Assembly: GCA_905160935.1 (NCBI GenBank)
Contig: CAJHZI010000573.1
Coordinates: 79,501 to 143,500 of the forward strand
DNA from: Enchytraeus crypticus
Taxonomy: Eukaryota; Annelida; Clitellata; Enchytraeida; Enchytraeidae
Direction: 5' to 3'
Length of the DNA stretch: 64,000 nt
The notes under the pieces are model-generated. The model was not told the origin of the DNA. It saw only the letters and a list, made by a program, of their open reading frames with translations, and did no database searches. Position numbers and translations under genes: made by a program. This document shows, piece by piece, positions 4,801 through 61,731 of this stretch (position 1 is the first letter of the stretch; the number at the start of each line of letters is the position of its first letter).

Positions 4801-7067
4801 AATTGTCAGACAATTTCTCAATTTTGTGCATATTGTCAGGAGTAAGCCAGAGTTCTTGTAAGAATATTAAATCTGATGTTATTGAATTATTGTTAGTATT
4901 GCAGAATGAATTTAAAAGCATTTTGCCTTGATTAAAACTGTGATAGTTGTAGGTCATAACGACTAGAGTACTATTAATACTATTCAACGCGGCCATTGTT
5001 ATATTCATCTGTCACAGTTTCGCTTACTACATCCAATTCAATTGCACTACTACACGCAGAATGAACAATGGCTGACGTATTGGCTTTCAGTGCCTCCTGT
5101 AGGCCTACCGATTCCATTTCTAAGTCAGCATCGCTTTCATTGTCTCTATTAATATTAACATTGGACTGGGCTGTCTCAGATTTCTCATTCACAACACCAG
5201 GTGCAAGAATATCAGCTGTCATCGTAATGTTCGTGTTACCAGCTGCTGCAGATTTGAGTGAATTTACAGCTATTGCGGAACTATCATTCACAAAGGCATT
5301 ATCAGTCAGATCGATTAATTGTTCTACTGTAATTGACTCTGGCTTGTATCTCCATTTGCAAACAATAATTCCGATCGGCCAAGAAGATTTCAGCAATAAC
5401 GTGGATTCGTGTTTCTTATCGATGGCTAACTTAAAAGACCGCGATGTTTGATTAGTCTTCGTAACATCAAAGCAAAACAATACCTTGATGTTAAGTCTCT
5501 CACACTGCTTCCTGATATCGGCAACCTCATGTTCTTTCCTAACATTTTATATGCCGAATACAGATTTTTCAGCTGTCGGACCATTCGGAGTGGCAGCTTT
5601 AATCATACCAGATTTGGCGTTTCCCACAACTTTCGCCTCAGTCGAAGTAGGCCTTGAGGCTACAGCTTGCTTACGAGTTCCTACCGTATGAGTATTGCGT
5701 GAAACTGTTTCACGAGTCACTACAACCTGAGCGTAAGAATTTTTGGACGCCGTGTTATTACGCTTTTGCTGACTGTCGCTCGCTAGCACTGAGTCTATGG
5801 GCGAGATGTTAGCGGCAGCAGCAGATCTCTGCTTTCGACTACGATATAAAACGAATCCATTGTCATCAGATTCCGAAACTTTAGGTGTCACAGTTACTGA
5901 ACCCCAGTGTTGCACTTCGCTACCTGTAGATTGAATGACTTCATTTTCAGCTCGCGACGCATCACTGATTTCCACAGGCCTGCTTTCTGAAACTTTCACA
6001 GCAGCTGACTGACTTAGCATGTTTAGGCCTGATCCACCTGTACTGTTCTTAGATGTCGATACACTCCTGGACAGAATGAAATTATCTGACATCTGGCGAA
6101 CTGACTGCAGAGAAGACATTGAGTTCTCACGAACCTCCTTAATGTAGTTTTCCAGTCTGCCTAATCTGGACCAGAGAAGATCCAGGTCCCCCTCCAGGAG
6201 CCTTGACGACGGTATGTGATCAGGATGATCCGCCACGAATAGGGGGAGACCACCCATGAGCCCCTGCTCATCCATGAAACACAGGATAGAAACGATATCA
6301 TCAAACTCGACAGAGGCGTTCGAGTTGTTGTCACGTCTTTTCCTAATAGACATCGGAAAATTCGGAATATCCAATTTACCGACGGTATCCAATAGCAGTT
6401 TTTTTCGCAGAAACTATATCATCATGTTGAAAGAATTCCAAAATTACTGAGTTTAGAGTTTTATTAGCTGATTTACCTATCTTATTTGTTACGAAACATA
6501 ACAAATTTGAAACAACTCATTCACGAGCAGCCGCCATGTTGGCAGCGTTACCACTTTTCTATATGTGTGCCTGGTATGTGCAATTGTATGCAGATTATAT
6601 GTGTATATGTGATTGGCCGGTAAATGCAATTGTAAACGGACAATATGTATATTTATATGTGGCTGATATGTGTAGTTGTAGCCTACAACAAATATTTGAA
6701 TTTATGTGTGGCAGATATGTGAAATTGTATAAGAAAATATGTGTATTTATGTGCGGTTGGTATGTGTAATAGTGTCTAGCCGATTTGTGTTTACTACGTG
6801 TAGCCGGTGTGTAAAAGACTTTGGTGCACCAGTCCAGACTTTGAGAGAACCGGATGTAGAACTCAGCACATGCCTTGGGCCGACGGAACACCCTGCAACA
6901 ATAAAAACGATGATGTAAGTTTGAAATAGCAAAAAAAATAAAATCTCTTTTTCTTTTCTTTTTCCTCTCTTTATTATTCTTTCGGTTTATTTTTCAGTTT
7001 CTTTCCATCTCTCATTATTATTAAGTCTCTCAGTTTCTCTTTGGCATCTATTCTGTGTATCTTTCTG

Positions 7068-7116
<49 letters not shown>

Positions 7117-9113
7117 CCTGAATATACATTACAAGTGGTCAGTCTTTCTTTCGTACCCCTTTCTTTATATTTGTTTTCTTATCTCGCTATACGCTATATT
7201 TTGTTATGTTATGCTATGACGCTATGTTTTGTGTTTAGTGATGCTTATAGAATATACTATGACGTAATGTTTTGTGTTTAGTGGTGCTATAGGATTTGCT
7301 ATGACGCTATGTTTTGTGTTTAGTGGTGCTATAGGATTTGCTATGACGCTATGTTTTGTGTTTAGTGGTGCTATAGGATATACTATGACGCTATGTTTTG
7401 TGTTTAGTGGTGCTACAGGGGGCAGTGTATACCCAAGACGATATACGCCCCGGTAGATGGGGATTGGGGCGAGTGGCAGCCATACGGTCAGTGCACAAGA
7501 ACCTGTGGTGGGGGCATTCAGCAATCTGTCAGACTGTGCAATAACCCACCGTATTTATCTTATTTTGTATTGATTGATTTAATTTTTGTAATAATTCTTC
7601 ATAAGTACATCATGCCAGTTAAATAATTTTAAACAAGTAATAATGATATGTACTGTAATAGTGATCTGTAAAGATAGTGAAAACTTTGGTTTGGACCACG
7701 CTATTGTATGGATGTGAGACATGGACCTTAAGGAAGGAAGATATTAGGAAACTGTAGGCGTTAGAAATGCGGATATGGAGAAGAATGGAGAGGATTAGCT
7801 GGATTCGAAAGGTTACAAATGAGGAAGTCCTGGAGAGAGTTGTCACAGATAGACAGTTGATAAATGTATTAAGAAATAGGAAGAAGATATGCATAGGACA
7901 CATTCTAAGGGGGAAGGTCTATTAAAAGAGGTCATAGAAGGTAGAATGGAAGGAAAAAGAGGCAGGGGTAGGCCGAGATTAGGTATGTTAGATGATATAA
8001 AGACCCACTCATATGTGGAAATAAAGAGGAAGGCGGAAGACAGAGAAGAGTAGAGGCGTTATATACCATGGATCTGCCAGTAGGCAATGCACTAAGAGAG
8101 AGAGAGAGAGAGAGAGACTGTAATAGAGGCTATGTCTCTGTATGACATGTAGAATTGTAGATGTACTAATGGTCGACTGTAATAGAGGTAATGTCTATGG
8201 ATTGAATGTAATAATATTCGACTGTAATGGAGGTAATGTCTGGTAATGTCTATGCATTAGCTGTAATAATGATTGAGTGTAATACAAGTAATGTCTATGT
8301 ATTGGAGGCAATAATGATAGACTATAATTGAGGATAATTTTGTAATGACATGTAGTAACATTTATTACATGTAATATCTTGTAATATTGATCTACTGTAC
8401 TAGAGACTATGTTCTTATATTAAAAAGATATGCACGGTTGAGATTAATGATCCTTTGTATGCTCTAGAAGAGCGTCAAGACTAACAGAGAGTAGAAATAT
8501 ATATATATTCTTTGTTCACCAAGCAAGTGGCAGTATTACAAGAAAGGAAAATTGGACAATAACTGAATTATGCAAACAAAAGAAATATAAAAGAATTAGA
8601 TTTACCTGTGAATTAACTATACGGTCATTTTGCTACATATACTAGAAACATCATAGCGGCAAAATACTTTCAAAATATTTCCAAAATTTTTATCTAATCT
8701 TAGTATTAGAGTCATTACTCTGAATGCCATATTTAGTTTGTAGAGTGAAATAATCTTCATAATTCAGATGATCTATGTCCAACTTATCATCCAAGCAAGT
8801 AGACAGGATCAGACTACGCAATATATGTACCTTAGATCTGACAGTTGGCAGAACACTAGAGACAGAGAGAGAGAGTGGGAGTACCTAACTTAGCTTGCTG
8901 ATATTGACCTATTTCAGACCAGAGCACGGGGGCAAGTATTGCATAGGGCGCAGAGTCAAATTTCGATCCTGCAACCATGACGTAAGTATTAATAGATTTA
9001 CTCATTATATGAGAATTACTCCTTTCTTCAGAATGGACCAATAAAAGAATAATGAATTTCGAGAATTCTGTCCTTTCTTTTTCTTGCCATGGATCTGCCA
9101 GTAGGCAGTACAC

Positions 9114-9163
<50 letters not shown>

Positions 9164-12100
9164 GAATTGGTAAATTGCTTTAATTCATGCTATTAAAGAA
9201 TTTAATTGAGTTAGCGCCTGAATTACCAGTTTTGGTCTAATATTGTAATTAGGCTGCTAGGCACTTAAATGTGTATAGTTGTTATTGTTGTATTAGGAAT
9301 GCCCGCCTTTAAATGTGTATTCTTGTTGTTGTTGTTGTATTAGGAATGCCCATATTTAAATGTGTATTGTTGTTGTTGATTTTGTATTTGGAATGCTCTT
9401 CTTTATATGTATATTGTTGTTGTTGTTGCATTAGGAATGCCCACCCGAGTCGATGGACTTCAGAGAGCAGCAGTGCTCGGCGTTCAACGGCAAGCACTTC
9501 AACATCAACGGGCTGGGCACTGACGTGTCCTGGGTGGCCAAGTACACCGGAAGTGAGTCTTGTTCGGCTTCAGTACTATATTGTTAGGTTAAAAAGTTCA
9601 ACACACTCCGTGGTGAAAACTATATATGACAAATGATCATCTTTTATCTCTTTGAGCTCTCCTATTCGACCATTGCACATGAACTGAGACCAACACGTAA
9701 ACCTCCATTCCATTAGTACCCTTCCTCGGACTGACTTCCTGGATTTTGGCTTGCACCGTTTTTGGACCCCACACTCTGCTCATCGGATTTGATTTGATAG
9801 CATAGTGCTTACTGTTGTCGTGGACGACAGTAGCATTCTAATTCTGTTGTTGTTGTTGTTTTTTTCTATCATTTCTAATACCACATGGTTAATCGTTAAG
9901 CAGTTTAGTCAATTATAGAGTTTTCCAGTCATGTTAATATGCAAGATTCCACTCTCTGATATTTCATTAGCTGTAATAATGATTGCTGAGTCAGGAATGA
10001 TCCCAGGACCTCAGGAACAACCGTTTAAAATTTTGTGATCCTACCATGTACACATTGATTAATTTAGACTTTCTAGCTTATACTGTATTCCGTGTGTAAT
10101 TACACAGATGGGATCCCTATTGCAGTGTATACTTTATTTTGTTTAAATATATTAAACTATACTAACAGGTTGAGATAGGAAGAGTAAGAGCGAGAGAGAT
10201 AGAAATAGATGAAATGGATGAAAGAAAAATAAGACAATTAATGGAACAAGCGAGAGAAGAGAGAGAGAGAGCCAACAAAAACGAGAATCTATGCGCATAA
10301 AATTACTAAATTTTTGAATTTGAACTGTAATTAGAAATTCTAAAACGTGTATTTGTTATGAAAACATTTCATTTAAGTAGCAACTTGAGTATTATTATAG
10401 TTCCATACAACTGCTAAGCTATCTTAGTTCTTTACCTACTATGCACTTTTTTAGTTCCGTGCTTACTGCAATGATGAAAAATTGCTGACAATATCAGTGT
10501 TGGAATGGGTCTTTGTGAAATAGAGTAGTCGTTAACTGAATGTGTCTGATATTATGTTTCAGTTGCAACAATAGACCGCTGCAAGCTGTTCTGTCGAGTG
10601 TCTTCGAGTACTGCGTACTATCAGCTGGCAGAGAAAGTTATCGACGGTACGAAGTGTGCGCCTGATACTACAGACGTGTGCATCATGGGACACTGTAAGG
10701 TGTGTATCTCTCTCCTCTCTATCTCTCTCTCTCTCTCTTAGTGCACTCTCTACTGACACGATCATGGTATACAACGCCTCCACTCATTTCTATCTTCCGT
10801 TTTCCTATTCAAGTCCACATATAGTGTATGGTAATATATAGTATATAGTATATATATATACTTTTAAATTATTTATAATATTCCTTTTAATACCATTATT
10901 CTTTGGGATTCTGCTTAATATGCTGTATATTATGCTCTATGCTCTGTTAAACATTAAACACTAAGCAAGTCATTTGACTTTGGCTGATTGATTATACAGT
11001 ATCTTGACTTCTCACTATACATAATTCTGCTAAAGCTGCTATACAGTGCAACTCTATACAAATGTGCTTATACGTATGGATTACTTGGTGACAAGACATC
11101 TCTATAGTTTATAATACTACATACATGTTTAAAATTGTTTACTAGCATATTTACATACAATTACAATTATAATTACATGCTAGCATAATTACATAAATTA
11201 TAATTGCATAGAGTGTAATTACATACAAGCATAACTGCATACAAGCATAATTACATTCAAGTGTAATTACATGCAAGCATAATTACATAAATTAAAATTT
11301 ATTTCATACAAGTATAATTACATACAAGGAAAAGAAAACCCACAAATGGAAATATTTGTGGATGTAATAGAAAGCCGGATGTGACCACCACCTGGGATCT
11401 GAGACTAAGAAGGACAAATGCGGTGTATGTGGAGGTGACAACACAAACTGTAAACAGATCACTGTACCCTGGAGGCCGTCAAAGAGGGTGGAATATGGTG
11501 GGTCCATTCTGTAGATTTCTAATTGTTTTACTTGTAAAAATATCTATACGATTTACCATTTAACACCTATATAATTTAGCCTTTAACAAGTAGCTATAAT
11601 ATTAAATGAACAAGAACCTATGGTATTAAATGAAGAGTTAAATAAATACCCATTGGTAAATGCTACGTTACTTTATGAACAAGTGAGCAGCAAAATTACT
11701 CAATATTATGAAATTTAAACGACACAGGTAATAGCCTATATCTAAATTTCCATTGTCGACCTACGCTGCCGTATTTTTTGTGGGATTTCAACCCTTGAGA
11801 AAGTAGAGAGATTACTTTGCTGCTATAGTTCCAGATTCTTCAAATGTTATTGGTAAAAGGATGCGCACACTTTATATTAAACCGGATTTAATCATTTCTC
11901 TGCTCTAGCCGTTTTGCACAGCAAGATTAAATTATATGATTTAAGCTTTTATAGTAAAATGCTTGCTGGTGTATTTCCAGACTGAGTCACCTTTGACATC
12001 ATCATGGATAAGAAGCCGATCGGTTATTAGATATTTATTCATCATCATCATCTTCTCGTTAATCCAAGTTTAACTAGTGTCGGGATTAGACAACTTTGTA

Positions 12101-15100
12101 GCATTTTAATTTGTCATTGTCTGATATTGTATTGCAGTGCATGGTATTATATTACTTTGCATTATATTATATTACATTGCATTGTATTGTATTTTGTTAT
12201 ATTGCATTGTTGTATCTTTAGGTTACAACCGAGTTGTAGTTATACCTAAGGGGGCGACTAACATCGAAATACGACAATACAGTGTTACTAACAGTAAAGA
12301 CGATGACACGTATCTCGGTAAGACAAAACATTTGAATATTCAAAAATTAACATTAAAATATTCATAGACATTATTTATAATTGTCTAATTTCGCAAACCT
12401 TCGGCGGCTTTTTATGTATTTACTATATGCTGAAGTCCATAAATTTGTTTAATTAGTTATTTAATGCGTTGATTTTGATTCGTATGTTTAATTGTGGATT
12501 ATAATTTCGTACTAAGTGTTGTGTTGCTATAATTAGTAGAATCTGAACGCAAATTCGCTTTTACCATGGATTCATATGTACCGATAACCTTCGAGACAGT
12601 CCAATGATTTTTACTCATTTTGGACTCAGTTTTTGCTTAGTGACGATGAAAACTTAGTAGATTTTCTCAAATATTGCTAGATAGTAGAATGTCCTAAATA
12701 TTCAAGTTATTATTACTGTGCAAGTTATTGCATACTATTGTGGATTAATCTAATGGATTAAATTAATTGTGGATTCAATCCAGAACTTGTTGCTGTATTT
12801 GTGTCAGTATTTTAGTATTTGAATAATGGTTGTTTTAGGATTGAATTCAAAAAAGTATTGTGATTGTTTTACGTATCTGTATATTTTTGGAAACAGGTAT
12901 TTTCGGATACTTATATCTATTTATAAGAAAAACGTTGATCTACTATGGAGAAAAATTATCATTATTGCCATAAATTAATATTAATAAACATTACTAAACA
13001 TGACTATTTTTAAGTATTTTAGATATTTAAAAATTAATAATTATTTAAATGTATTTGTTTTTATTGCCTCATGTATCTCAGCGCTTTTGGATTCGAGGGG
13101 ACAATACATCTTGAACGGTAACTTCATCGTCAGTGCCTTCCATAAGGAGATCCATGTGTCCGGGGTTATACTGGAATACACCGGATCAGCCACCGCTGTG
13201 GAGAAGATTAACGGAACAGGAATGATCAATGAGGATTTAACTGTTGAGGTTGATCCATGCATTCAATTAAATAATCTATCAAGCAGTCAGTTAATCAATC
13301 AGTCAAACAATCAGGAAGACAATCAATCAAGCAATCAGTTAAGCAATTCAAATAGAGTGTTACTGTGATCCATGACATCATTGAACAGTCAATCTGTAAC
13401 TTAGTAAGACAATCACATTGAGCGGTTAATTCATTGCTTAGTAATTCAATCAATCGATCAAACAATCAATCTACACTTGAAAATTTAAATTCGTGTACAA
13501 ATTTGTGCATTATTCTGATTCTAGAGATCTAGCAGTACTTTCGATCTCACTTCTCTTGTTTGATAGTGCGTGCAGATTAATATTTTTCCACTTGCCCTTG
13601 TACCATGGAATGTGGGCACCTTGTTTCCAGCATGCTGTCCAGATCTGGAATTCGATTCCTTTCCTCATCCACTCCTGATCAACCTTTCCTACTTTGCGAA
13701 CAGTTTCATAAGCGGTTAAAAGCTTTTTCTCTTCCATTTTTCTTATCCGCCTAATGTCCATTAACAGATACGATCGCACAAACTTCAATTATTCTAGTTC
13801 CCTTTCTTGTACTTATTACCCAGATTTTGGTAGCGGTTTATGGATCACCCACATGCTGCTCATCGGTTTTGATTTGGTTCCACGGTGCTCAATGTTGTCA
13901 TAGACAACAGTAGCACTCTAACGTATTGTTGCTGTTATTGTTGTTGTGCGCATTTCGGCTAAATATATATTACTCCATTGTTTTCTCATTATATTTTTAT
14001 AAATTTTTTCTCGCTAGCCCCTTCTATTCAACTAATGCTGATGTTGATGTCAGCCGCAGTATCTGTTAAAATTGATATTAGCGACGGGAACTCCAAAGAT
14101 TTCAACCCCACATATACTGACCTGTAGTCTGAGTCTTAGGCTAATATTCGTATCACGTGCTAAGCCAGTTTCTGATATCTACTTCCTTTTATTTTTTATC
14201 CTTTATTTATTATGATTAATTAGTTATTAATTAATTTATTTTTTATTATTAATTTATATTATTTAATATAAATATTAATTTATATTAATATAATATTAAT
14301 AATAATAATAATAATAATAAAATTATAATAATAATAATAGTAATAATATAATAATAATATGTGATTTATATACATATTAATTGATATTAATTTACATTTA
14401 ATTTATTAACTTATTATTATTATTATTAGTTAATTTATTTATTATTATTATTTATTATTATTGTTTTATTATTATAATTTTTATTTGTTATTTTTCCTTT
14501 TATTTACGCTTTACGTTTTTGATATCCGCTGAAACCGGAGAATAATTTCCTTTGATATCGATACATTTCAGGTGTTGACGGTGGGAGATATGCAGCACCC
14601 ACCTAACATCATGTACCAGTACACGGTGAGGGTGGATGACAGAGCGAGGACAGTGGCTCGTAGCGTAGAGCCTTACATGTGGAGCTCTAACACACTGCGC
14701 TTCAGTCGCTGCAGTCAAATCTGTCAGGGTAAATTACGCCTACTATCTAAATTGAGAAATAAATTAATAATAAATATCGTCTCTGTATATATTTGTGTTA
14801 AATGCTCTTAGATATTTACACTTCGTCATCATCTTCTTCTCTTGAATCTCAGTTTAACTAGGGTCGGGATAGTATTATTGTTATTATTATGAACAACGAA
14901 AACTTATATAGCAGTGTCATGGCCGAACTCGCTCTTCGAGATTACTTTACAGAAAGAGTCCAATAATAATAATAATCTAAATAACAATTACATTAAGTTA
15001 ATATCTAAACTAGTAAGAAATGTCTACATATGAGTGGAATTTTATACCATCCAGATATGAATAGACCTTCTCCACTCCTCTCTTTCCCACATCATGTCAT

Positions 15101-18100
15101 CCATCAATCCCTGTTTTTCATTTCTCTTTCAATGACGGCGTCCTACGTCAGTTGTGGTCTATCTCTGTTTAAATTAACTCCCAACTCCTCCTTACGAACG
15201 CCATCAAAACATCATACTCTGCTTTATCACTATATGATCATTCTTAAACACCTAGGAATAAATAATTAATTTAGATAAGGGATATGACGTAACGGTTAGA
15301 ATGTTCACGTCGGAAGCTAGTGGCCTTGGTTCGAAGCCCAGGTCAGTTAGCAACAAATAGGTCCCTAGACCCCCTCGAAGGTTGTTCATATATCGTATCT
15401 CGCTGCCAATTGGCGCTATCAACAGCAAATATGCGATTTATCATGGCCTGTAAAGCAGTCTCGAAGTTACCGTCCATGATACTGATATAGAAATGGTCGT
15501 TGTAAAAATATCCAATCGTTTACCAAAATACCGGAGTTTTACATGTACACAAACTATAACTGCTGTCATTGAGCAAGTACTATTTAATTGTCTGTTTCTA
15601 TATTGCCTTGATAATGTAAAACATGCAGTGACCGCATTTTTCTGAGAAGTTGAAAAGTTAACAAGTCTATATCTAAAATAACTTTCAGGCACGAAGGTGC
15701 GTCACGCGGTGTGTGTGAGTAGATACAATGGAGCGATTGTTTCACCTCAACATTGCCAATATCTTGAGAAACCTGAGGATGCTGTCATTCCTTGTCACAC
15801 TACTTGTAAGCTAAGGTAAGTCTTTATCCGTTCCCGTTACTCCACTCCATCTCTGCGTTCGTTCTTGACATCATCCTTGTATGAGGAAACGGACGTTAAA
15901 CCTTTATTATTATTATTATTTTACCTTTATATTATCTTGTTGTAGAGCAGTCATCTGCTCGGGTTTTGAATCCTGTATTCTCTGATTTCTTCCTCTCTCC
16001 AGCTAAAATCGCCATCACTCTGGATTTAGACGCTGCGATATTATCTGCTTTATATTTAGTCAATGCTACCTGCAATCTACACGTATAATTTGTGCTATCT
16101 GGAATAAAAGATAGAATTATTATCAAAACGGATAATATATATGTATATTGTTCGTAGGCAAGCCCTGCTATACCTACGCACCATTGTCGGTATAGTAGGG
16201 CTTGCCCGCTATGTTGGCTCAGATACTATACGTATTAGAGCTCCCAATTAGCTAGAGTTTCCTCCAAAAGGGCATAATCCACTTTCATTAGTACAGTATA
16301 ATTTTATCTCTATTATAATTCAATTGTGAGTTTATTACTAATTACCAATAACTATGTTTATACAGTGACATACACAAACAAGGCCGTCAAAGAGGTCACA
16401 AGTAACCTATCTAGTTGACCACCCATCCATCCTACAAATTGAAAAATAACTAGGCAAGCGAAATAAGCATGCAATACAAGTAAAAGAAATTTCAGTTGAT
16501 AAAGTATTAGTAGGAACTATTCTGAATGTGTGGATTTATATTCGTTATTATTAGTTGGGAGGTTATACCAGCCAGTGAGTGTTCAGCCAGATGTAACGAG
16601 ATAGGGGTGATGAAGCAGGAAGTCAGGTGTAAAAAAGAATCCACGACCCCGGACTCTCCCAACTCCAGCCGTAATCACGTAGACCAATCCCGAGCGTCCT
16701 ACATATCCGTCGATCAGTGCTCCCACCTTCCGGATAGACCATCCGACACTGTATCGTGTCGTGGGTCCTGCCTGGATACTCGCTGGATTTATACGGAGTG
16801 GTCCCAGGTGGGACTTGTGGAAGCTTTGATATAAATAATATAAATAATAATAATAATAATATAATAATAAAAAATTTAAAAATTTTAAAAGTTTAAAAAG
16901 TTAAAAATTTAAATAGAAATTGACCAATTGAAAGCTATTTTCTTTCGCTATAGACGACTAGTGGAGCCAGAGAGAAAAGATATTTGATAGGAATTAAGAT
17001 TAGTTGTCCATGTTGAAGTGATAGATCTTTAAAATGTTAGTCTCTCTTGTTAGACATTGACGATGAGTTATAGGCTTTAGACACAAAGGATCAAAGGGTA
17101 AAATTAAAACAAATTATTAGATACTAAGATATTACAAAAAAGCTGTAGATATTGAAAATTAATTGATTACAGATAAGCCCAAAATATCATCATCATCGTC
17201 TTCTCTTGAATCCCAGTTTAAGTAGGGTCGGGTTTAGAAAAATTCAAAATTTAAAATTTAAAAGATTAATTTTTCTAAAAATTGTAAGCATTAAAAAGGT
17301 TAAATTATTATCATATTAATTAGGTATTTTAATAGATAAGATGACGGAATGCCGTAATATTCCAAGTCTTTCAATTAATTAATTAATTGAATTGATTTAT
17401 ATATTAATTGTTTGATTGAATATCTTAATTAATTGATTTCCTGATTGATTGATTGAGTAATAGATGTTGGATTCATTGATTTGTTTATTGATTGAATGAC
17501 TGTTGATTGAATGACTGACTGATTGATTAATTGATTTATTTATTTAATTATTTATTGATTGATTGATTTATTTATTGATTATTTGATTGATTGATGATTG
17601 ATCGATTAATTGATTGATTGACTGCCTGACTGACTGATTGATTGACTGACTGACTCACTGATTTATTGATATGCTCAGTGCTCGAGGTCATGCGCTGGGG
17701 GGGAGCAGTATCGTAACGTGACGTGCTGGACGGGAGATGGAGTGAGAGTGACGGATGATCGCTGTGTCGAGTCCGAGAGGAAGTCCATGAGGAGGCAGTG
17801 CGCCACCGTCGAGTGTCCCAGATGGATTGAGGGCCAGTGGTCAGGGGTAAGCATCTGCATCCAATTATTATTAATAATTAGTAATTAATATTAATAATTA
17901 TTGTTTTAATTATTATTAATAATTATTATTTTACTCTTTATATAATACATTATTTATTATTAATAATAATTTTAATTTTTGAGATCATTTTTTAGATTAC
18001 TTTTATATAATACCATATTTATTAATAATAACTATTTTACTTTTTGAAATATTATAGGTGGCAGGTCCAAGGTAAATGTTCGTACTTGCAGTTCTATGCT

Positions 18101-22925: not shown

Positions 22926-22992
<67 letters not shown>

Positions 22993-23009
22993 ATATATAC
23001 ATATATATG

Positions 23010-23040
<31 letters not shown>

Positions 23041-26000
23041 TCCTCTGTAACTACTTTATCACAGCTATATCTATTTCTTTCACTATGTTTGGACTGCCTG
23101 TGTTTGCATTGCTGTCTTTTAATGTATTATGTAAATATCTGCTGTTGTCATACTGTTATGAAATAAACGCAGAATGTTTAACGAATAAATCTAATAAGTA
23201 GTACTAAGTATGTCAATGTCGATTATTTGGCGTCTCTCTTAGATCATTTGATACGTTCTTATAGATGAAGATATATATGTTGCAGATTTCATGATATTAA
23301 ATAACTTATCTTTAGTTCTGGTTTCATGAGCTGGATGCGCCTTGGCTTCCAAAAATGTATCATGGTGTTCTACGGTTGATGTTCTACAAACAAATTAGCA
23401 TCGTGCATAGAATACGAAGGTGCAAAGAACCTTAAATTAATTAATTAATTATCCTGCGTGATGGCCACCAGTGAGGACATGTTGATCAACCTCTTATGGT
23501 GCATTGTTTATGTATAACATAAATTACGAAGAGATATTTTTTGTGTACAGTATTGAACAACGTAATATGGAGTGTATTATGTGTGTACAGTGTAGCGTAT
23601 CATGTGGTGGGGTGTATTATATATGTACAGTGTAGCGTATCATGTGGTGGGGTGTATTATATGTGTACAGTGTAGCGTACAATGTGGTGGAGTGTATTAT
23701 GTGTGTACAGTGAAGCGTATCATGTGATGGGTGTATTATGTGTGTACAGTGAAGCGTCTCATGTGATGTGGGTGTATTATATGTGTACAGTGAGAGAGAG
23801 AGATATATATGTGTTTATTTCAGCATCAACACCAAATCACTGACAAATACAAATAGAAATAAACATTTAAATGAAATAAAATTAAAAATTCCCAGAAGCA
23901 CAGTGTGTCAAACAGAGTGTATGGAATGTATTATGTGTGTACAGTGCAGCGTATCATGTGGTGGGGTGTATTATGTGTGTACAGTGTAGCGTATCATGTG
24001 GTGGGGTGTATTATGTGTGTACAGTGTAGCTTATCATGTGGTGTGTTATGTGTGTACAATGTAGCTTATCATGTGGTGTATTATATGTGTACAGTGTAGC
24101 TTATCATGTGGTGGGGTGTACTATGTGTGTACAGTGTAGCGTATCATGTGGTGTATTATATGTGTACAGTAGCTTATCATGTGGTGGGGTGTATTATGTG
24201 TGTGCAATGCAGCGTATCATGTGGTGGGGTGTATTATGTGTGTAACAGTGTAGCGTATCATGTGGTGGGGTGTATTATATGTGTAACAGTGTAGCGTATC
24301 ATGTGGTGTATTATATGTGTACAGTGTAGCGTATCGTGTGGTGGAGGTGTACAGAGAAGGATTGTACACTGTCAACTGCCTGACGGACAACTTCTGCCCG
24401 AGGCGAATTGTCTGGACTTTGCGCCCCCTAACTCTCAGCCTTGCTCCCTTCATCACTGCCCCTCTGATCAATCTAACCACGCCCCCAGACATGGTAACTG
24501 GGTCAAGGGAAACTGGTCTCCGGTAAGTTAATTTTCTATAACTATTGCTTTCCACATATCATCTGTCGGTGTGAAAGGATGCTTTAATTTTTTATTGAAT
24601 TTTGGTTTTATTTAATAATAGTGACATTTTTATTTTTAAATGGCTCCTGCTTCTTACTGAGTTTATCATTTCTTCCATGCGCAATAGTGACTCTGTGAGT
24701 GTCTAATAACGATGGCTTTGAATACATGTATCCCGCATGGGTGTATCATACCATATACTTTCCAGTATATGATATAATGGCTGCATATCAAATGTCACAA
24801 CATGTAGTAAACGTATTGCTGTACTTTTCAATAATTAAATGATATGCAACAAACATATTAAAGCTTGTTGCAATTATCATTAATTTTGTATTTTATTAAT
24901 AATATGTTCAATCGCTAAATTGTATGGTATTCATGGTCTTCTTGTTTATCTATGTACCTTATGTGCTTCTTGAGTTACTTGTGCATTTTTAAGAAAATGC
25001 ATTGTAACATTATGCATTTTCGTGCTCATTTCGGTTTAAATACTCTATATAATTTAATAAAAAAATGCATTTTTAACCAAACTTTCACATCCAGGTTATA
25101 CTATTCATTCAATAATGATGTTTATGATTTAATTATAAACATATATATGTATGTATAACCAGCGTGTGAATGATCAGTTTGCGTTCGGTGTCTTCCTGCT
25201 TTCTTGTTTTCCGTAAATAATTTCTAAATATTAAGTTGCCTTCCACCCTGTACTGTTAATATCATTACGTGCTTTTATTTCGTTTTGTGCCAGTAGTGCT
25301 ATTCAACACTTTTTAATTTTAAATTAGTTCTTAAGTTATCAAGTAAATATCAGAATCTATTACGAGAAAAATATTGTGGCTCTCTAAATATATATTATGC
25401 GTATTTTATGTTTTAGCATTTTAAAGCATTGAAAAATTATAATCAAGCAATTATTATTGCATTAAAGTTATTGTGCATTAGCTTTGTATTTTTCATTGCG
25501 CATAAAATTTATATCTATCAAGCTTTTGATTTATTTTCAATATTATTTAGATGTTAATCTTATATTTTGATTTTCTAAGACAACGCAAATAATCAAACAA
25601 AAAATCATCCGTTTGATGTTACATGTTTTTATTAATGAAACTGGCAGTACGACCTTTGACCTGCAGTTGGCAGTAAACTAGACTGATGACTAGAAAAGTT
25701 GTAGTTAAGTATAAATGGCTATTAAAATATTTGTTTCCGCCGGAAAGCCTGTCATGTGCTATTTGTTAGATCATCTTCATCATCATCCTCCCTAGAATCC
25801 AAGTTTAACCAGGGTCGGGAATTGACATTCTCCAATCCTCTCTGTTACCAATCACAAAATGCCCGTACCGTCCATTTGTTTACATTTTGTAGCAATTTCT
25901 GGAGCCTAGGCGCTTACCCACCTAATGCCCTCTCTGACGTTTGGTTTTATTCTTATTTCTATGTTGCCTTTTCTGACACGTGCAGGACAAGACTGGTCTA

Positions 26001-29000
26001 TCCTCAAGCAGCCCGGATGCAACACTGGAATTTTCTAAATCAATAGTCTTAAAACGACTCACTTATTTATTCCATAAAGAGTACTCCTTCGATCAACACG
26101 TTTCAAAAAGCCAAATCCTCCACCAAAATCTCAGTGTTGATATTGATTCTAGTATGAAGATACTACGGCATCTCAGGTGGTTCTCAATACCATATCCTTT
26201 CATGTTTGGTCGTCTCTTAAAACAAAAGCCGACCAATCTCTGATATATTTAGCTCTCTACGAGAACAACCGTGGATTTCTCTTTGGATGGGTTTTTCTGT
26301 CATTTTATAATTTCTTCAAAACCAGTAACTTTTTGTTTCAGTATGATAGTCGAGCTCTGATAGCGAGGCGTACAAAGACTAAGCGAAATCGTTCAGATTT
26401 GATGGTAAAGAATTAGAACAAGTTCTGTGGCTTGGCAGTTGCTTGATTGATAAGTTATAGTAGCTTTTTGACAACTTTGCATTGCTTCAAATAGCTTTTT
26501 GACATACTGGGATATTATTATGTGTTGTAAACTCTGATGGTTATTGCTAGTAGTTATTGGCCTTACTTCTCCTCAGCACATTTCTTTTGCGGATTGATTA
26601 GTTTGGGTGAATTGATCTTTAGTGATGTGTGCTATGGGGACGTCCCTGACATCATCCCTGGATGAGGAAACAGACGTTTAAACTTCTGTTATATTGGATG
26701 ATTTAACGCCACGATTGAAAGGAGGTTTAAATCTAGTGACGAGTTTCAACAGTTTCGTTAAAATTCAAATATAACCAAACAGCACATATATTACAGATTT
26801 GCAATTAGGAATATTTTTATCTTGAATTTTAATAGAAAATCAATTTACATAACCCCTACTTGCTTCATGATCGAGCAAAGTTGCCTAATTAGCAACAGAC
26901 CATAGGTTTAATTTCCTGTCACTAATTTCACAGTGTGCCTTTTCTATTTTAAACTGACTCTTATAATTGACGAAATTTAACTTAGCGAACCTTTTTCCGA
27001 ACCTTGTTCATATATATTCTATTTTGAGGAAAAATGACAGTTGTTTGTTTATTTGTTAACATTTGACTGAACAGCTTAGAGTATTTTATTGCTAACTATA
27101 TATGTAGGCTATCTCAACATTTTGCAACGCTGAACCGTAATTAACATTAACGTTCTAGTTTTGTTTTGTTTTACTAACGGTGTTAGTTAATCTATGTTGT
27201 TTATTATTTGATAACTTTTATGCTTTTCACCGTCATTGTATACCGTGCTAATATTTTATATCGGGCCTCTTCAATTGCCAAACTCTTCTAATGCTATACA
27301 AAACACTAAAATATTTTGTTGTAGATTAATTACTTTTTATACTCATATATTGAAATCTAATGTTCTATTCATATTAAACTCTCCTTAATTATTATCTGAC
27401 GAAGATGGGGTATGACAGGTTGTAATATTTCTGCGGCTTAGCTGCAGTATGAGTTTTAGTTTGAAATGACTAAACGTCTAAATTATACGTCGTCTGATAC
27501 GGTTTCCTCCCACCACGAAACCACTTAAATCAGTGCAAGACTTGTTTTAGATGAAATGGTACGTTCGTTCCACTCTTTGTCTTTCATTAGATACTTCTTT
27601 ATCTAATACAAAGTCTGTGACACCTGGAGATGACAAGGCTAATAAGGCTGACGATGCCTTTATATCTTATAAATACTAATAGTATCTTCCTAGTCGAAAT
27701 ATATTACCAGATTTACCAATTAATTTCTGTGTGATTCTTACGTTTTTGCAAGATATTTTAAATTAATAATTATGGCATTATTCTGTTGAGTTTTATTATA
27801 ATTAATTAAAAACCACTGATAAATAAATTCAAATATGTAATCAGTACCTTAATGATTCTCAAGTTTAATCACATATTTTAAGTTTTTTCTCTTTAATAAC
27901 TTAATCACTATTGATTGATTAAGAGATTGATTGATTGATAGATTGTTGATTGATTGATTGATGTATATTCGTAGTGCTCTGTAACATGCGGTAAGGGCAG
28001 AAAGTCCAGACAAGTGGCTTGTGTTGATAGCAGTGTCAACAACAACAACAGCAGCAGCACGGCTATATTGCCTAACAAAGATTGCGAGAAATCTGGAAAG
28101 AAACCCAGCACCAGTAAAATCTGTAATAAATCCAAGTGTCCACGCTGGAAGACTACGGATTGGTCGTCTGTGGTAATCAATTTAATGACAATATTAATAA
28201 TAAAAATAATAACCTCCGAAAATGTCTATAGGACTTTCATGGCCGGTGGCTTGTCTTCGAGACTACTTTACAGGTTCCTGGCCGGCCAATATTATTCCTC
28301 TCCAAGGTTAATCGTATCTTTACCATTGATAGCACCAATCGGCAGAGAGCTCCGAAACAGGAATAACCTTCCTTGGGCTTAAGGGGACATTCATCATTTG
28401 TTGACTGGCCTGATCTTTGAACCCAGATCACTTGTATCCGAGGTAAACGCTCTAACCATTACACGTATCCCCTCCCTCCTAATATTATCTTTTATTAGGG
28501 ATTTTAAGTTAATGTTCAAAAGTATAAATATCTGAAGGGTTTTATAAAGGGCGCATTTCAACAACAATAATAAACCTTTGTATAAAAAAGTAATAGAATG
28601 TAATTTGCAATTAAGGAAAAAGTAATTGTTATTGAACGAAGAGTAACTGAAGTGTAGAGTCTAATTGAAATTCATTTGAAGAGTACTAAAGTAATTTAAT
28701 GTAATTAATTAATTACTTTTGACGTATAGCTTCCCCGTGGCAATGTTTTACATTTATAAACAAATGCTCTCGCGAAGAACAAGCGAGAAAGAAAATTATG
28801 ATTTATTTTTTACAACCTGTGACATGCTTGGTTGTAACTTGCATGTTTACTTCCACAAAGATCTGTAATTGCTAGGGGCAGTATACTCAATTTTATTTTG
28901 TCAGTTCTTGACTATTGATTATTTAGTATTTAAATAAATTTGGAGTATAGATTTTAACAAATTTATTTGAAAGAAGTCATTATTACAAAGTTTAACTCTT

Positions 29001-32000
29001 TTATAGAATTTATAGATGTAACAATTTGGGAAAAGCGAGAGAAATTTCACGAAGATCTTAAGAGTAGTTCTAATTGGTAAAGTAATGAATATCGCACAAT
29101 AACTTGTAATAATTACAATTATTAGATATTAAAATTAATGAATAATTAACATTTAATTTAATTGATTTATAGTGTTCAGCGGAATGCGGAGAGGGAGTGG
29201 TGTGGAGAAACGTGAGTTGTGTGAGAGGCCGAGGCAAGGAATTGAACCCAGATCTCTGTATTCATCTCCCTCGTCCCAGCCTCTCGAAGATCTGCCACGG
29301 TACCATCTGCTCCCCGTACGTCTGGAGAACTGGCGATTGGTCTGCCGTTAGTATTAATTAATTAATTCATTCATTCAATCATTCATTCATTCATGCGATT
29401 CAATTATGCATTTAGGCTACATAGCTTTTTTTCGTTTAGTATCGTTTTTTGTTCATCACAGCATAGATTATACAAACAATAGGAACGTGTATGTAGTTAG
29501 ATAAACAAATAACAATACTAAAGAGGCTACCATAAAAGAGCCATAGCTCTGTTCGGTAATACCATAATTAGTAGCTATAGCAGAGTCTAGCTTAGAAGGA
29601 TCGAGGTAATGAATATGCTTCTATGTAGGGGTCACTTTTCAATTCTTTGTTTGAAACGAGAAAAATTGAAAATATTTCAACCTTATCAGATATAATTTAT
29701 AGGTTGAAATGTGTATGATTAGTATTATTTTCCAGAATACGGAACCATTTCGAATTTTACGTCTAATTGTTCTAGGTTTGTTAATTTTGGTACGAGAAGG
29801 CTGATGTTACAGTTGGCTTTGATCATAAAGCATCGAAATATTTGACTGAAAAGTTTGTATAGGAATGTGGTATTGAGCAGTCATCATCAGACTTTGGATG
29901 GGTGGGTAGGTGTAATATCACAATGCCAGTTCAGTATAAAATGTGCAGTACTGTGTTAATTACTTATATGTCCCTTTATTGCAATTTATATCTCAATTGT
30001 GATTCACAGACACATGTTAATTTATGAGTATATGTATTGTGTTCTTTGTTGTTACAGCCTTTTGCCTATGTTCGATTTGCTTACTCGGAATACTGTTTTT
30101 GCACAGTTTGTGGATCCTATGTTTTTGTTCTTCGACTTGACAATGATTTACATAGTGCGTAATGTTGTCATTGACGACACTTGCACTCTAATTGATGTTT
30201 TACTTGTTGATTCTGTCTTCACGGAATTGACCAATCCGAGAGGCTTGGTTTGTAATGCATTCTACATTCTGCGCGTACTTTCTAACTATACGTCACTATG
30301 TGTGTCACAGTGCTCTAGTTCCTGTGGAGTTGGCCTATCAGAGAGAACGATCATGTGCATGGAGAGAGTGGCTGGCAGATTGGTAGAGGACCGGCACTGT
30401 GACCCGACGACTAAACCAGACTATCAGAAGGAGTGTCGCTTCAAACACTGTGATACACTGTGGATAACCAGCGACTGGACTCAAGTATGCAATATACACG
30501 TATGAAAGCTAAAAAAGCTAATGTTAACTTCAGTTTCCTCACTCGAAAGCGATGTCAGGGACGAGTAACCCCAGGAATTGAACCCCGCACACACTGATCC
30601 GCGGTCGAATATCTTACCGACATATTAGGTATATAGAAGAAAACCTTTTTAATAAAAAGAGCAAACACGCATTATAGTACATTGTTCAATTATGTTGATA
30701 TCTAGCACTTCTAATACCACATATTTGAACCGTTGACAATTTAGACAATTTTACGTAAAGCCAGTCCTGTGAATATCCGAGATTTTACTCTCAGATCAGC
30801 GCGGCTGGGATTCGAACCCACGAGGGTTCAATTCACCTCAGTGATGATTATGATGATGATTTCGTTCTCTTTCGTAACATACTAACATTTTAGTGAAATC
30901 ATCATCATCATCACCTTGCCTTAAATCCTAGACTATCTAGGGTCGGGATACGAATAGACCTTCATTTTTTATCCATTCGTTTGAATTTCTGTAGCAATTT
31001 CTGGACTCTAGGCGCACACCATCAGTACAGTACTGTGTAGCACTGTACTGAGCAGTATGGTACTGTGCTGTATGACAGACTACAATAAAGTACACTACAG
31101 TACTGTGCAGTGCTGCAGAGTACAATAAAGTACACTACAGTATTGCATAGTGCTGCAGAGTACAATAAAGTACACTACAGTACTGTATAGTGCTGCAGAG
31201 TACAATAAAGTACACTACAGTACTGTACAGTGCTGCAGAGTACAATAAAGTACACTACTATACTGTGCAGTATGGCAGCTAGAGTACAATAAAGTACATT
31301 ACTGTACTGTGCAGTGTGGTACAGTACAATAAAGTACACTACAGTACTGTACAGTGCTGCAGAGCGCCGTGCCGTGAGCAGAGTAAATCTAAAAAACTAA
31401 TGTTAACGTCAGTTTCCTCACTCGAAAGCGATGTCAGTGACGTGTGAGCCCAGGATTTGAACTCCGCACATGCTGATCCGAGATCGAATATCTTACCGAC
31501 ATCGCCACTGGCTCCAGCCAGGGTTATCAGTGAGAGAGTAAAAAACGCACATTAAAGTGAAATGATCAACATGTTGATATCTATCACTTTTAATACCACA
31601 TGTTTAAATCGTTAGGCAACTTTTATTCCATTTTCCTTATAACCAGTCCAGTGAATGTTCGAGATTTTACTCTCAGATCAGTGCGGCTGAGATTGGAACT
31701 CACGATGGGTCAATTCATCTCAGGATCTGTCATTTAAAACTTCATGACTTTACCCCTACGCTATTAAGACATTCAGAGTGATCCTGTCAGAGTGATGAGG
31801 TCAGTTTATTACTACTACGATTCTTTGCAGTGCTCGACGAGCTGTGATGAGGGCTTGCAGAAGCGCTCAGTTAAATGCCGGTCCATGGCAGCTGAGGGAT
31901 GGCTTACACGTGATGATAGAGGCGTCAACAACTGCAGTCACACAGAGCGACCACCAAGCGAGAGGAAGTGCAACTACGGCAGCTGTGCAGCTCACTATCA

Positions 32001-35000
32001 TTGGAGGGTGTCAGCTTGGAGTGCGGTACGAGAGAGAATTAAAATGTTACATAACTCTAGTTTAATAGTAAAGGTTTAACGTCCTTTTCCTTATCCAGGG
32101 ATGATGTCAGGAACGCCATTATTTTCAGGGATGTTTAGCATAATTATCATGGTCGATTATTGAATCGGGAAATATGGAGACAATGAAACGAACCGAGTAC
32201 GTGTGAAATCTTGGATGGACACTAAATGCAGCACAATAACCTACTGTTTTTTGTGCACTGTGGCACTAAAAATCTGTAAACTTCTGTCTGTGCAATGAAA
32301 CGCTATGACCTATTGTGCGTTTGCACAGTTTAGCTTTATGACCTACTGTCCGGTTCTACATTGCAGCGCTACAACCTTTGTCTATTGGTACACTGCAGCA
32401 TTATATCCTACCGTTGGTTTATACACAGTGCTCGAAGACTTGTGGATTTGGCGTCGCCTATCGTGATGCATATTGTCAGTCAGTTGACGGAAGCCTTCAG
32501 TCGAGAGATAAGTGTGACCTGGGCTTCCTTCCAGACACATCAAAGCAGTGCTATATGGGCCCATGTTAGTACTATTACACTTCTGTGTGTTAACTTTTTG
32601 AGGAATCTTATAATAGTCTACTGGTTTGTGGTTTGTTATCACGGTATCTCGACTCTTTTGCTCGTAATTTCGCTCTGTATGATTAGCCTGCTTCAGTAAA
32701 GATATCAACAACATTTATAGCAATACAGTGAAAAGACAATCCATGTTGGGATTGGTCAGTATGAAGCCTAACTCCAATTGAGTGACAAACAAATAAAAAT
32801 CCAATGTAAAATAAAGCCATTCTAAACCCAGAAAATCTTTGAAGTCAAGATTCTCCCGCCTTCACTGTACTTGTACGTAAGAGGCGATTTACAGTGTAAA
32901 TTATCATAATGAATTTGTGACCACTGTAAAAGTCATATTTGTAAAGCGAAAAGCTATCGTGATTCTGATAAAGTCATATTATTTATATCTATTTTGGTGA
33001 GGTTAAGTTTTTACTCGATTTATAGCTTTATAGTAGCATTAAAACAACTGAGTTACTTCAGAAATATGCCCTAATATCTTGGACCGATCATTTTGGAGGA
33101 GCACCGTTCAGTCAATATAGTACGGCAATACAAAGTGAAACATCTCTTTACTGCTTTGATCTATTAACACTTTAACATAAGAGTAAAATCTAAAAGTGAG
33201 CCAGATATGACGTCCTAAGCTTTATCTGCCGCAGACCTCATGATGACGAGCGAGGTAGTGAGATACCATAAACATGAATATGACAGGTTATTTAAAACTG
33301 CAAAAGTACTCGTTTTTTATATAATTTTAAATCGTATAATGCTAGAATTTCTTTTAGACATATTTATGGCTTTAAATAAATTAATTATGACATTATCATC
33401 ATCATCCTCCCTTTAATCCCAGTTTAACTAGGGTCAGGTGGTTTAACTAGATCAATTTTAGCATTATACTTTTGAAAATAATTCTCTGTTACATTTTTTT
33501 CATTTTCAGGTTATTCTTCGTCCTGTAGAGAGTTGAGAGAGACATCTGCGATAAAGAAAGATGGAGAATATATACTTATAATAAAAGGAAAACTTTTGCC
33601 GGTCAGTGATATATTCTCATATTATTAATCTCACCGTTGAATAAATAATTTAATTATAACTAATAAATCTGCCTAATAATAAATAATATAATGAAAGTCT
33701 ATGTTTTTGAAACTGGACATAATGACAATTATTAGTATTTAGTTAGCAATGTTAATTAATTAGTACTATTAATTAAGAGATTGCTTTAGAAATTATTTTA
33801 TTAAACTCAGTGTTTTTGCGAAACCCAGTATTTTTTCAAATCATTACGAGAGATGTAAATTTCCTAAAAGCAAACGTTAATAATTCTACTGTAATAGAGA
33901 GCTTTGATGGTTATTTGAAGTCTCCGTAAAACTTCAGTTTCTGTCTAGAAAGCATTTCCATGAGCACTAAATTGGAACCCTGCACCTATTATTTGCCGGT
34001 CAATCAACTAACCGATGTGATACCGGCTCAGTAACTTTACTATGATATGAGCAGTCTGATGATTGGCTCTGTTTAGATCCATTAGCACGTTATTTAAGCA
34101 GCCTCATGATTGGCTGTATGTGTTTAGATCTATTAACACGTGATGTAAGAAGCCTTATATTGACTGTATGTGTTTAGATCTATTTTCACATGATGTAAGC
34201 AGCCTGATGATTGGCTGTATGTATTTAAATCTATTGTCACATGATGTAAGCAGCCTGATGATTGGCTGTATGTATTTAAATCTATTGTCACATGATGTAA
34301 GCAGCCTGATGATTGGCTGTATGTGTTTAGATCTATTGTCACGGTATGTCGAAATCTCATCCAATTGAATACCTCACGTTGCCAGCTGGACAGACTGAAA
34401 ACTATTCTAAAGTCTATGGAAAATGGTATTTTTAATATACTTATAGTCATAAACAATGTCATTCTTAACGTTCATATTGCTACAGTGTTATTTTTATTAG
34501 TTCTCTTTGTCAGTGTCATATTGTTGTTGTTATTTTCTTTACTGTTAGAAATGTGTTTTGAGACGCCGTCTTCTATTGGGAGTTCAGGTTCGTAACTCAA
34601 TGTGACTTAGTTCCATACCATTAGAGTGTCTTTGAAGCTTGATATAAAATAATACTTTACTGAAGTGCCTTGTTAAGCCTTCATACCCTAAACCAATTAA
34701 ATAGGTTCTCCGTCCTCTAATGACCTAAGAAATCACGGTCGTCACGGAATTATAGATTTTAATTAACTACTGCTTTAATTGTTAAACGTCAGAAAAGGTA
34801 TTCGGATGCGCCTAGGCTCCAGAAATTTCTACACAATTTTTCGAAACGATTGGGACAGATTATATGAAATTAACGATGTTATGGTAGGGGACAGAGATTT
34901 AGTATCCCGCCCCTAGTTGAACTGGGAATAATGGAAGATTATGATGATTGATTGATTTACATTTTAAGAATTTAATACTCCATTAACGATTCAGCAAACC

Positions 35001-43043: not shown

Positions 43044-43076
<33 letters not shown>

Positions 43077-43594: not shown

Positions 43595-43849
43595 GTAAGT
43601 ATTGTAATGCAAAATACTTATTTAAAAGATTTTACTTTTAGACAAAGCAATTTCTGAATTAATTTTTAAATTTTAAGCTATAAATAACTTGTGACATTGT
43701 TATTTTATATAAGCTTAGTCTAAAATGAGTTACTGAACTAATTTTAACACTTTAAACCTATATCAGATTTAAAATATAGAGGACAATTTATCACCTAGAG
43801 GACTATAATAGGTCATAGCTTTAAAATAGATTTGCATTTTACTCTTTAG

Positions 43850-54640: not shown

Positions 54641-54786
54641 CTGAGAAGGCTAAAACTGGGGGTTAAAACTTTAGCTGAGAAGGCTAAAACTGGGGGTTAA
54701 AACTTTAGCTGAGAAGGCTAAAACTGGGGGTTAAAACTTTAGCTGAGAAGGCTAAAACTGGGGGTTAAAACTAAAACTTTAGCTGA
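54641..54786 (+). repeat. 34-bp minisatellite (4 units)
   Basis: Unit GAGAAGGCTAAAACTGGGGG + TTAAAACTTTAGCT, nearly identical copies, so recent expansion. Each unit contains a GGGGG run. Confidence 0.95.
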
Positions 54787-60523: not shown

Positions 60524-60660
60524 GTCGTGAACCACAATGTACTATGCAGCAGTCAGTTAACCCTAATGAACCGTAAACCGCAATGTCCTATGAAGCAGTC
60601 AGTTAACCCTAATGAACCGTAAACCACAATGTACTATGAAGCAGTCCGTTAACCCTAACG
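60524..60660 (+). repeat. about 50-bp tandem repeat (3 units)
   Basis: Units with GAACC(G)TAAACC, ACAATGTACTATGAAGCAGT and CAGTTAACCCTAATG. Confidence 0.9.
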
Positions 60661-61703: not shown

Positions 61704-61731
61704 CTGTAGCAGCGTAATACATCAGCGTTAT

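Follow-up and report, generated by a model that had tools for sequence, protein, structure and literature searches.

Why tandem repeats should run across splice sites of one gene again and again, and whether this is a property of 3' splice sites, is the question raised by the stretch of DNA analysed here (64,000 nucleotides, hereafter the window). The gene concerned is an ADAMTS gene with GON, ADAMTS spacer and TSP1 domains in Pfam (Table 1). Its model has 29 exons and gives 1491 residues after a split first codon, with a frame that is open to the stop codon. The exons upstream of E3 lie only partly inside the window, with homology at 1086–1242. The protein is 42–43% identical to its Branchiostoma counterparts and groups with that of the annelid Capitella (support 100/99), not with those of lancelets. 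The junctions under study, with exon starts at 7408, 9435, 20084, 24325 and 34331, were set by the frame-consistent gene model and homologous proteins.

Table 1. The ADAMTS gene and the repeat arrays in and near its introns (positions in the window; slashes mark exon–intron junctions).
Feature	Position	Strand	Unit and copies	Relation to exon	Basis
GON-type ADAMTS gene, exons E3–E31	6833..43564	+			phase-consistent gene model, Pfam, homologues, tblastn
Degenerate array before E3	6560..6812	+	~23 bp	non-spanning; ends ~20 nt upstream of E3 acceptor (6833)	
E4 acceptor array	7210..7419	+	42 bp x 5.0	spans junction 7407/7408; 12 exon bases per copy	TRF
E6 acceptor array	9265..9443	+	44–47 bp x 3.9	spans junction 9434/9435; ~11 exon bases	TRF
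TGAT-type tetranucleotide array before E14	17374..17670	+		ends 8 nt before acceptor (17679)	
E16 acceptor array	19833..20085	+	22 bp x 11.5	ends on junction 20083/20084; certain: acceptor and 2 exon bases	TRF
TGAT-type tetranucleotide array before E17	20889..21076	+		ends 9 nt before acceptor (21086)	
E20 acceptor array	23568..24351	+	40 bp	spans junction 24324/24325; ~20 exon bases per copy	TRF
TGAT-type tetranucleotide array before E21	27910..27962	+		ends 12 nt before acceptor (27975)	
Minisatellite in intron before E24	31076..31364	+	40 bp x 7.1	sole strong array of the gene off any splice site	
E27 acceptor array	34042..34342	+	51 bp x 6.0	spans junction 34330/34331; 12 exon bases	TRF

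The units of the spanning arrays join intron bases to a stretch of exon bases, and most copies include the splice dinucleotide. An earlier note on this DNA had placed arrays across the acceptors of E4, E6, E16, E20, E25 and E27, and more weakly E3. TRF and the gene model bear this out for E4, E6, E16, E20 and E27. E3 was rejected since its array stops short of the acceptor, and E25 was rejected since TRF found no array there by default and only a 10-bp unit in 2.1 copies under relaxed settings; self-copy at E25 was barely above that of shuffled sequence (P 0.025). The same note had each unit take in the acceptor and usually 2–20 exon bases, which is true of E4 (12), E6 (11), E20 (20) and E27 (12). 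The exon-derived bases in the copies of these four carry at most one mismatch each, a score reached in 0 of 5000 shuffles. For E16 no more than the acceptor and 2 exon bases can be taken as certain (P 0.058). Four of the five arrays share at least 11 exon nt with their copies. Unit sequences and lengths differ between the arrays, in agreement with the independent origins that had been proposed. AG is kept in 30 of the 36 upstream copies, and the E27 array holds two neighbouring, identical copies without AG. The E20 array is broken at 23793–23926, with 5.6 and 11.1 copies on either side by TRF. The TGAT arrays close to the acceptors of E14, E17 and E21 were absent from the earlier note.

The sense strand is GT-rich relative to random intron segments in four of the five arrays (P 0.0005–0.014; E27, P 0.11), and GC skew is +0.24 over the last 25 nt of the ADAMTS introns. 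As a cause of the arrays this was rejected and stands as an observation only; the ends of the first 62 myosin introns did not show this skew (+0.09 and +0.10).

Splicing to any of the 36 upstream acceptor copies examined in ADAMTS would bring a stop or a frameshift, and therefore the last copy is predicted to be the working acceptor, as the earlier note had held; reading frame and homology agree on this. The working copy would in general be the one joined to the remainder of the exon, which is the last copy at an acceptor and the first at a donor. It probably remains the working one because nearly all the others bring stops or frameshifts. We assume that the decoy copies would be kept silent through exon definition or through the decay of mis-spliced RNA.

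Five of the six strong arrays of the ADAMTS gene lie on acceptors, whereas 0.19 were expected, and the maximum was 3 in 50,000 trials of random placement. Together with the density of myosin array ends at exon edges described below, this supports the earlier view that placement by chance is implausible. Arrays span 5 of the 29 acceptors, and no strong self-copy was found at the 28 donors (Fisher P 0.052). The contrast was weaker when single points were compared: duplication was found at 4 of the 29 acceptors (E16 extends to +2 only) and at 6.7% of 1112 intron points.

Arrays of the same kind occur elsewhere in this genome, whose assembly comprises 524 Mb in 802 contigs. Among 81 exon matches to myosin, arrays span the acceptor edge in 9 and the donor edge in 7 (16 of 162 edges). 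The spanned edges were picked by eye, because automatic splice-site prediction was too imprecise; on the first 62 matches it gave 4 of 39 acceptors and 3 of 48 donors spanned, with a profile that was flat into the intron. Most edges of the non-spanned matches are ends of HMM matches and not proven splice sites. All 16 hand-checked arrays share at least 11 exon nt with the nearest copy, a few mismatches being allowed, and the splice dinucleotide is retained in 55 of the 61 copies. Fifteen TRF-delimited spanning arrays were observed, compared with 6.8 expected from random placement that permitted 40 nt of exon overlap (P 0.0003). The density of array ends per kb was 1.49 from −60 to −2 nt of the exon edge, 2.24 from −2 to 20 nt, 0.49 from 20 to 120 nt and 0.10 from 120 to 300 nt. 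In the two gene families sampled from this one genome, array ends gather at both kinds of exon edge. In the pointwise test, from which 9 low-complexity and 3 short-flank edges were left out, the junction was duplicated in 20 of 150 cases and intron points 60–200 nt away in 78 of 689 (P 0.48; P 0.35 with stricter and 0.70 with looser matching). An ORF scan near other arrays led to a CC2D2A-like gene, coding by PF24656, with a donor array of 39 bp in 19.8 copies at 98%, and to one candidate donor array. No spanning array was found in 5 exons of CCT chaperonin genes with 300-nt flanks; these came from 40 selected among 57 matches, with 5 matches (a single-exon match on C373 and two each on C259 and C400) and 12 low scorers outside the selection.

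In ADAMTS and myosin together, 21 of 219 sampled exon edges, about one in ten, carry a spanning array, at 14 of 110 acceptors and 7 of 109 donors (P 0.17). Specificity for 3' splice sites, as proposed in the earlier note, is contradicted by the near-equal myosin counts and by the 20-copy donor array of the CC2D2A-like gene. The restriction to acceptors in ADAMTS was a small-sample effect.

Our data suggest that the arrays are probably mirages, a term used for amphioxus; that is, they would result from local tandem duplication, at the DNA level, of sequence on both sides of an exon–intron junction, and would be anchored at exon edges and largely silent in the RNA. They may have started as duplications of about 20–160 bp at a junction, and slippage or unequal exchange might then have caused array growth and homogenisation. 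A working splice site would be dispensable for growth, since the AG-less copy in E27 was itself duplicated exactly. We assume that the arrays are unstable in length. As the cause of anchoring we favour, although it is unproven, a junction-linked mutational bias, which might arise from breaks associated with transcription or splicing or from template switching, with selection mostly neutral. The earlier note had left the choice between mutational hot spots and tolerated or selected arrays. The density of array ends leans towards anchoring at exon edges, but point by point the junction hardly exceeds nearby intron, if at all. The pointwise junction values lie near the intron level in both myosin and ADAMTS, and therefore part of the pattern is that of arrays near exons generally. 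Only tentatively can it be proposed that splice junctions are themselves a mutational hot spot, at which short tandem duplications centred on exon edges arise again and again through some process coupled to transcription or splicing, leaving about one edge in ten with a row of decoys. Such a process might involve R-loops, stalling of the polymerase, or splicing intermediates that serve as templates for copying.

The closeness of the pointwise junction values to nearby intron, in ADAMTS and in myosin, would also be expected if minisatellites arose everywhere and were purged from exon interiors, with small exon overlaps surviving through one intact copy and no hot spot at all. Minisatellites are indeed common outside the ADAMTS gene, with 39 strong arrays in 264 kb of contig, window included. 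We regard pure tolerance of this kind as rather unlikely, however, since array ends crowd at exon edges far more than 120–300 nt away, the intron interior holds only one of the six strong ADAMTS arrays, and random placement falls short of the number of spanning myosin arrays even with exon overlap permitted. It seems improbable that the arrays are selected because extra copies of the branch point, tract and acceptor, or of the donor, raise the efficiency or fidelity of splicing at weak sites. The dinucleotide is kept in most ADAMTS and myosin copies, but recent copies would retain it anyway, and in E27 a dead copy was amplified. Acceptors with arrays are also not weaker than others when scored by leave-one-out (P 0.64 and 0.30); they had appeared weak only under a model trained on the other acceptors, and the idea was dropped. 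Selection on the arrays is neither needed nor shown.

New introns have been suggested to come from mirages (PMC3087553), and in human, repeats at boundaries form introns (PMC2812944). On this reading the duplicated AG/GT sites would yield alternative isoforms or new introns today. This is very unlikely here, as only 4 of the 61 extra myosin copies, and not one upstream copy in ADAMTS, are usable with the frame kept. An assembler that created or mis-sized the repeats is the least credible source of the pattern. One amphioxus mirage does appear mis-assembled in a draft genome (PMC3087553), but the units here differ by point changes and indels, the arrays differ in sequence and recur on many contigs, and an assembly in so few contigs suggests, without proving, long reads.

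The earlier note knew of no described class of this kind, but the arrays match the mirages of lancelets. These were described in amphioxus Adh3, troponin C, the globins BflGb6 and BflGb9, and PGBD5, with similar structures in retinol dehydrogenase and presenilin genes; they occur at both 5' and 3' boundaries, many copies carry AG/GT signals, and units are 10–72 bp in Adh3 and 150–160 bp in BflGb6 (PMC3087553, PMC3902484). The RT-PCR products reported were normal (PMC3087553). The arrays in our genome are likewise tandem arrays over exon–intron junctions with intron and exon bases in each unit, AG/GT in many copies and overlapping unit lengths. Both boundary types are hit in this genome too, although ADAMTS itself has arrays at acceptors only. 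Mirages were described gene by gene in cephalochordates, whereas here the host is an annelid-like lophotrochozoan with five in one gene and about 10% of sampled edges affected. Splicing and somatic instability were tested in amphioxus; our analysis covered one genome assembly.

A minisatellite that repeats a splice donor, and that reportedly supplies donors to the transcript, is known from a single human locus (by the title of a paper cited in PMC2572611). It shares the repeated donor with our arrays and differs in being one locus whose donors reportedly reach the transcript. The locus is said to be IFI6/G1P3. In human segmental duplications, variable internal tandem repeats with units of 30 bp on average occur at exon–intron boundaries and account for 27 intron modifications, and 66% of the intron cases also have repeat-retaining transcripts (PMC2812944). 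These are minisatellites at boundaries as here, but they were chosen for a difference in copy number between paralogues (PMC2812944). The model of Rogers, in which introns are gained through duplicated AG/GT proto-splice sites (cited in PMC3087553), also involves tandem duplication with splice signals; it starts within an exon and makes a new intron, whereas here existing introns carry the arrays. Among the literature matches listed, none concerned mirages outside cephalochordates, the human cases aside.

Our study takes a peculiarity of lancelets into a distant phylum and gives it a frequency, which was not met among the literature matches listed. Acceptors or donors in tandem that are identical apart from their position offer a natural experiment in spliceosomal choice between equal sites. 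Should exon edges indeed be hot spots of duplication, splicing or transcription would be linked to a specific type of mutation, and new introns and shifts of exon boundaries could draw on a running supply of raw material.

The GON-domain ADAMTS gene of the window was modelled as 29 exons (E3-E31, window 6833-43564) with consistent phase; the first codon is split, and the single open frame that follows it has 1491 residues. The source genome is a 524-Mb assembly of 802 contigs, in which the window occupies C480:79501-143500, and the ADAMTS junctions were set by frame, phase and homologue comparison, not by RNA. A domain search with a shortened protein detected GON, ADAMTS spacer, cysteine-rich and thrombospondin domains. 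Among the best 120 of 2129 matches, the top homologue was protein P0103 (50% identity across the entire query), whose source, a 6.6-kb contig, is probably a transcript judging from its length; Capitella and Branchiostoma homologues followed with 43% identity. A tree built from 18 selected proteins paired the window protein with P0103 and joined the pair to Capitella (100/99), not to lancelets. Because the tree holds only one annelid, the placement is no finer than "annelid-like lophotrochozoan".

Strong minisatellites (period at least 18, at least 2.8 copies, at least 80% matches, score at least 100; the halves at E20 counted once) were found by TRF across the acceptors of E4, E6, E16, E20 and E27. 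The earlier note had named seven acceptors, but the E3 array stops about 20 nt before its acceptor and E25 barely exceeds shuffles, so that neither was retained as spanning. Its claim that the units contain exon bases held for E4, E6, E20 and E27 (12, 11, 20 and 12 bases; 0/5000 shuffles each), and at E16 no more than the acceptor and two exon bases can be taken as certain (P 0.058). Chance placement is implausible, as had been argued: 5/6 strong ADAMTS arrays terminate in exon starts, against a mean of 0.19 on acceptors and a maximum of 3 in 50,000 trials when arrays were placed at random and could overlap an exon by up to 30 nt. When every kind of tandem repeat is included, coverage is 35% in the final 200 nt of ADAMTS introns, 17% in the first 200 nt and 9% in interiors (last versus first, one-sided sign-flip P 0.007; minisatellites alone, P 0.02). 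The break in the E20 array is probably an insertion.

Features of the window and of other loci of the same genome (C480, contig of the window; other C, contigs; L, retrieved stretches)
Feature	Position	Description
E20 array interruption	window 23793-23926	134 bp of unrelated sequence
TGAT runs	window 17442-17620, 20929-21075, 22630-22739, 27925-27961	+ strand; myosin cases in loci L022-L081
Myosin acceptor array	C735:246994	40-bp units of acceptor plus start of (G)NPLLEAFGNAKT
Myosin donor array	C325:892888	43-bp units of exon end ...SNPIME plus gtaagc
PF24656 exon array	L015:5765-6535 (C480:279265-280035)	donor plus 27 exon bases repeated
Strong minisatellites (TRF), no exon known there	window 43825-44010, 44422-44497, 54641-54772, 56148-56801, 60526-60658, 62937-63230	some units read acceptor-like
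Minus-strand gene, identified by eye	window 63630-63780 and about 61353-61705	exon 63630-63780 matches choline-phosphate cytidylyltransferase (4mvd, E 9e-8)
Array near minus-strand exon	window 61728-61899	starts about 20 nt upstream of presumed acceptor of exon at about 61353-61705; resembles dispersed-repeat tail
Reverse-transcriptase frames (PF00078) of retroelements	window 2037-3929, 40108-42789	minus strand; upstream of E3 and in last ADAMTS intron
31-bp, 17.8-copy array	L006:9010-9560 (C480:192510-193060)	minus strand reads as coding end, then gtgag
22-bp array	L020:6776-6930	stops a few bases short of putative minus-strand acceptor
135-bp duplication	C336:1039214-1039360 (in L073)	exon end and its donor, near-exact

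A Pfam Myosin_head search of the same genome gave 81 exon matches, a lower bound because the best candidates alone were scored. All were retrieved together with flanks no longer than 500 nt, and the arrays were checked by hand. Nine acceptor and seven donor edges are spanned; each of the 16 arrays has 1 to 8 other junction copies, and at least 11 exon nt are common with the nearest copy in 16/16. The acceptor array at C129:390389 was scored by eye because TRF stopped 23 nt short of the junction. Spanning frequency does not differ between acceptors and donors, either in myosin (P 0.79) or after pooling with ADAMTS (14/110 versus 7/109, P 0.17); overall, 21/219 edges are spanned. In the 200 kb that follow the window, a coding exon (PF24656) ends in a 39-bp, 19.8-copy, 98% array. 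We take its gene to be CC2D2A-like; this locus, to which the array itself led, is left out of the counts. Contrary to what had first been supposed, the phenomenon is not specific to acceptors. No spanning array occurred in five chaperonin exons with flanks of 300 nt, a sample too small to weigh. The L006 array is possibly a further donor-spanning case in a putative coding exon, and the C336 duplication is a possible first step toward a junction array.

Exon-facing ends of myosin arrays at curated edges number 14 at -60 to -2 (1.49 per kb) and 8 at -2 to 20 (2.24 per kb), and their density falls to 0.49 per kb at 20-120 nt and 0.10 at 120-300 nt. Fifteen TRF-delimited arrays span myosin edges, against 6.8 when placement is random within the flank and may extend 40 nt into the exon (P 0.0003). 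By edge, the values are 8 versus 4.8 for acceptors (P 0.046) and 7 versus 2.0 for donors (P 0.002); a previous run, restricted to the first 62 matches, gave 4 versus 1.9 (P 0.11) and 6 versus 1.5 (P 0.002). Plain tolerance of arrays, without a junction hot spot, is nevertheless a serious rival because of two controls. In ADAMTS, a local self-alignment score of at least 44 is reached at 5/29 acceptors and 0/28 donors (top donor score 22), with the junction clearly crossed in four of the five and the E16 alignment extending to +2, but 6.7% of the 1112 intron points that precede 34.4 kb also reach this mark, which weakens the contrast with acceptors. In myosin, after 9 low-complexity and 3 short-flank edges were dropped, duplicated 15-mers were present at 20/150 junctions versus 78/689 intron points 60-200 nt off (P 0.48; P 0.35 with one mismatch, P 0.70 with three), and points 60 nt from junctions were duplicated in 24/134, above the junction rate. 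Automatic splice-site calls in myosin gave 4/39 acceptors and 3/48 donors spanned, with coverage flat into the intron. The end clustering and the pointwise result together indicate that arrays are located close to exons, in which they often terminate, and that the junction base is not extra-duplicated relative to its intronic neighbourhood.

AG is kept in 30/36 upstream junction copies of ADAMTS, and 0/36 are usable without a stop or frameshift; this count excludes three weak rows (7209, 23551 and 23819) and misses two E20 copies with an inserted base, visible by eye. In myosin, 55/61 other copies retain AG or GT and 4/61 are usable with an open frame. Three upstream copies at E4 are identical to the working copy over -14 to +8, so site choice cannot depend on that stretch. 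At E27 (window 34191-34292), two neighbouring copies identical across 51 bp both lack the acceptor AG. A dead copy was thus duplicated, and array growth needs no working site.

Runs of (TGAT)n with at least three units occur on the sense strand in the 250 nt preceding 4/29 ADAMTS acceptors and 6 of the first 62 in myosin; the ATCA orientation occurs there in 0 and 1 cases. After donors there was no TGAT run, and ATCA was found in 0/28 ADAMTS and 2/62 myosin cases. All 12 such runs of the window are in + orientation. The motif resembles a branch site.

The arrays most likely arose by tandem duplication at the DNA level anchored at exon edges and were later homogenised, with putative growth by slippage or unequal exchange; a mutational bias linked to the junction may contribute. 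Decoy copies would be silent at the RNA level, and the arrays are probably mostly neutral because the exon-joined copy remains intact. The earlier note knew of no such class, but a match exists in the mirages of amphioxus. PMC3087553 describes these as intron-exon boundaries duplicated in the manner of a minisatellite, at either end, with units of 10-72 bp (Adh3) or 150-160 bp (BflGb6), length and somatic instability, an unclear mechanism, and splicing that by RT-PCR is apparently undisturbed. Further mirage genes, troponin C and PGBD5, appear in PMC3902484, and boundary repeats in human in PMC2812944. Intronic minisatellites are reported in earthworm by PMC12783039, whose consulted passages do not mention boundary-spanning ones. 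Our literature search, largely outside subscription literature, gave no mirage census and no lophotrochozoan mirage among the matches listed. The junction arrays of E. crypticus are real, non-randomly placed and wider than the earlier note claimed, and they extend a class already described to a new lineage, at an unexpected frequency.
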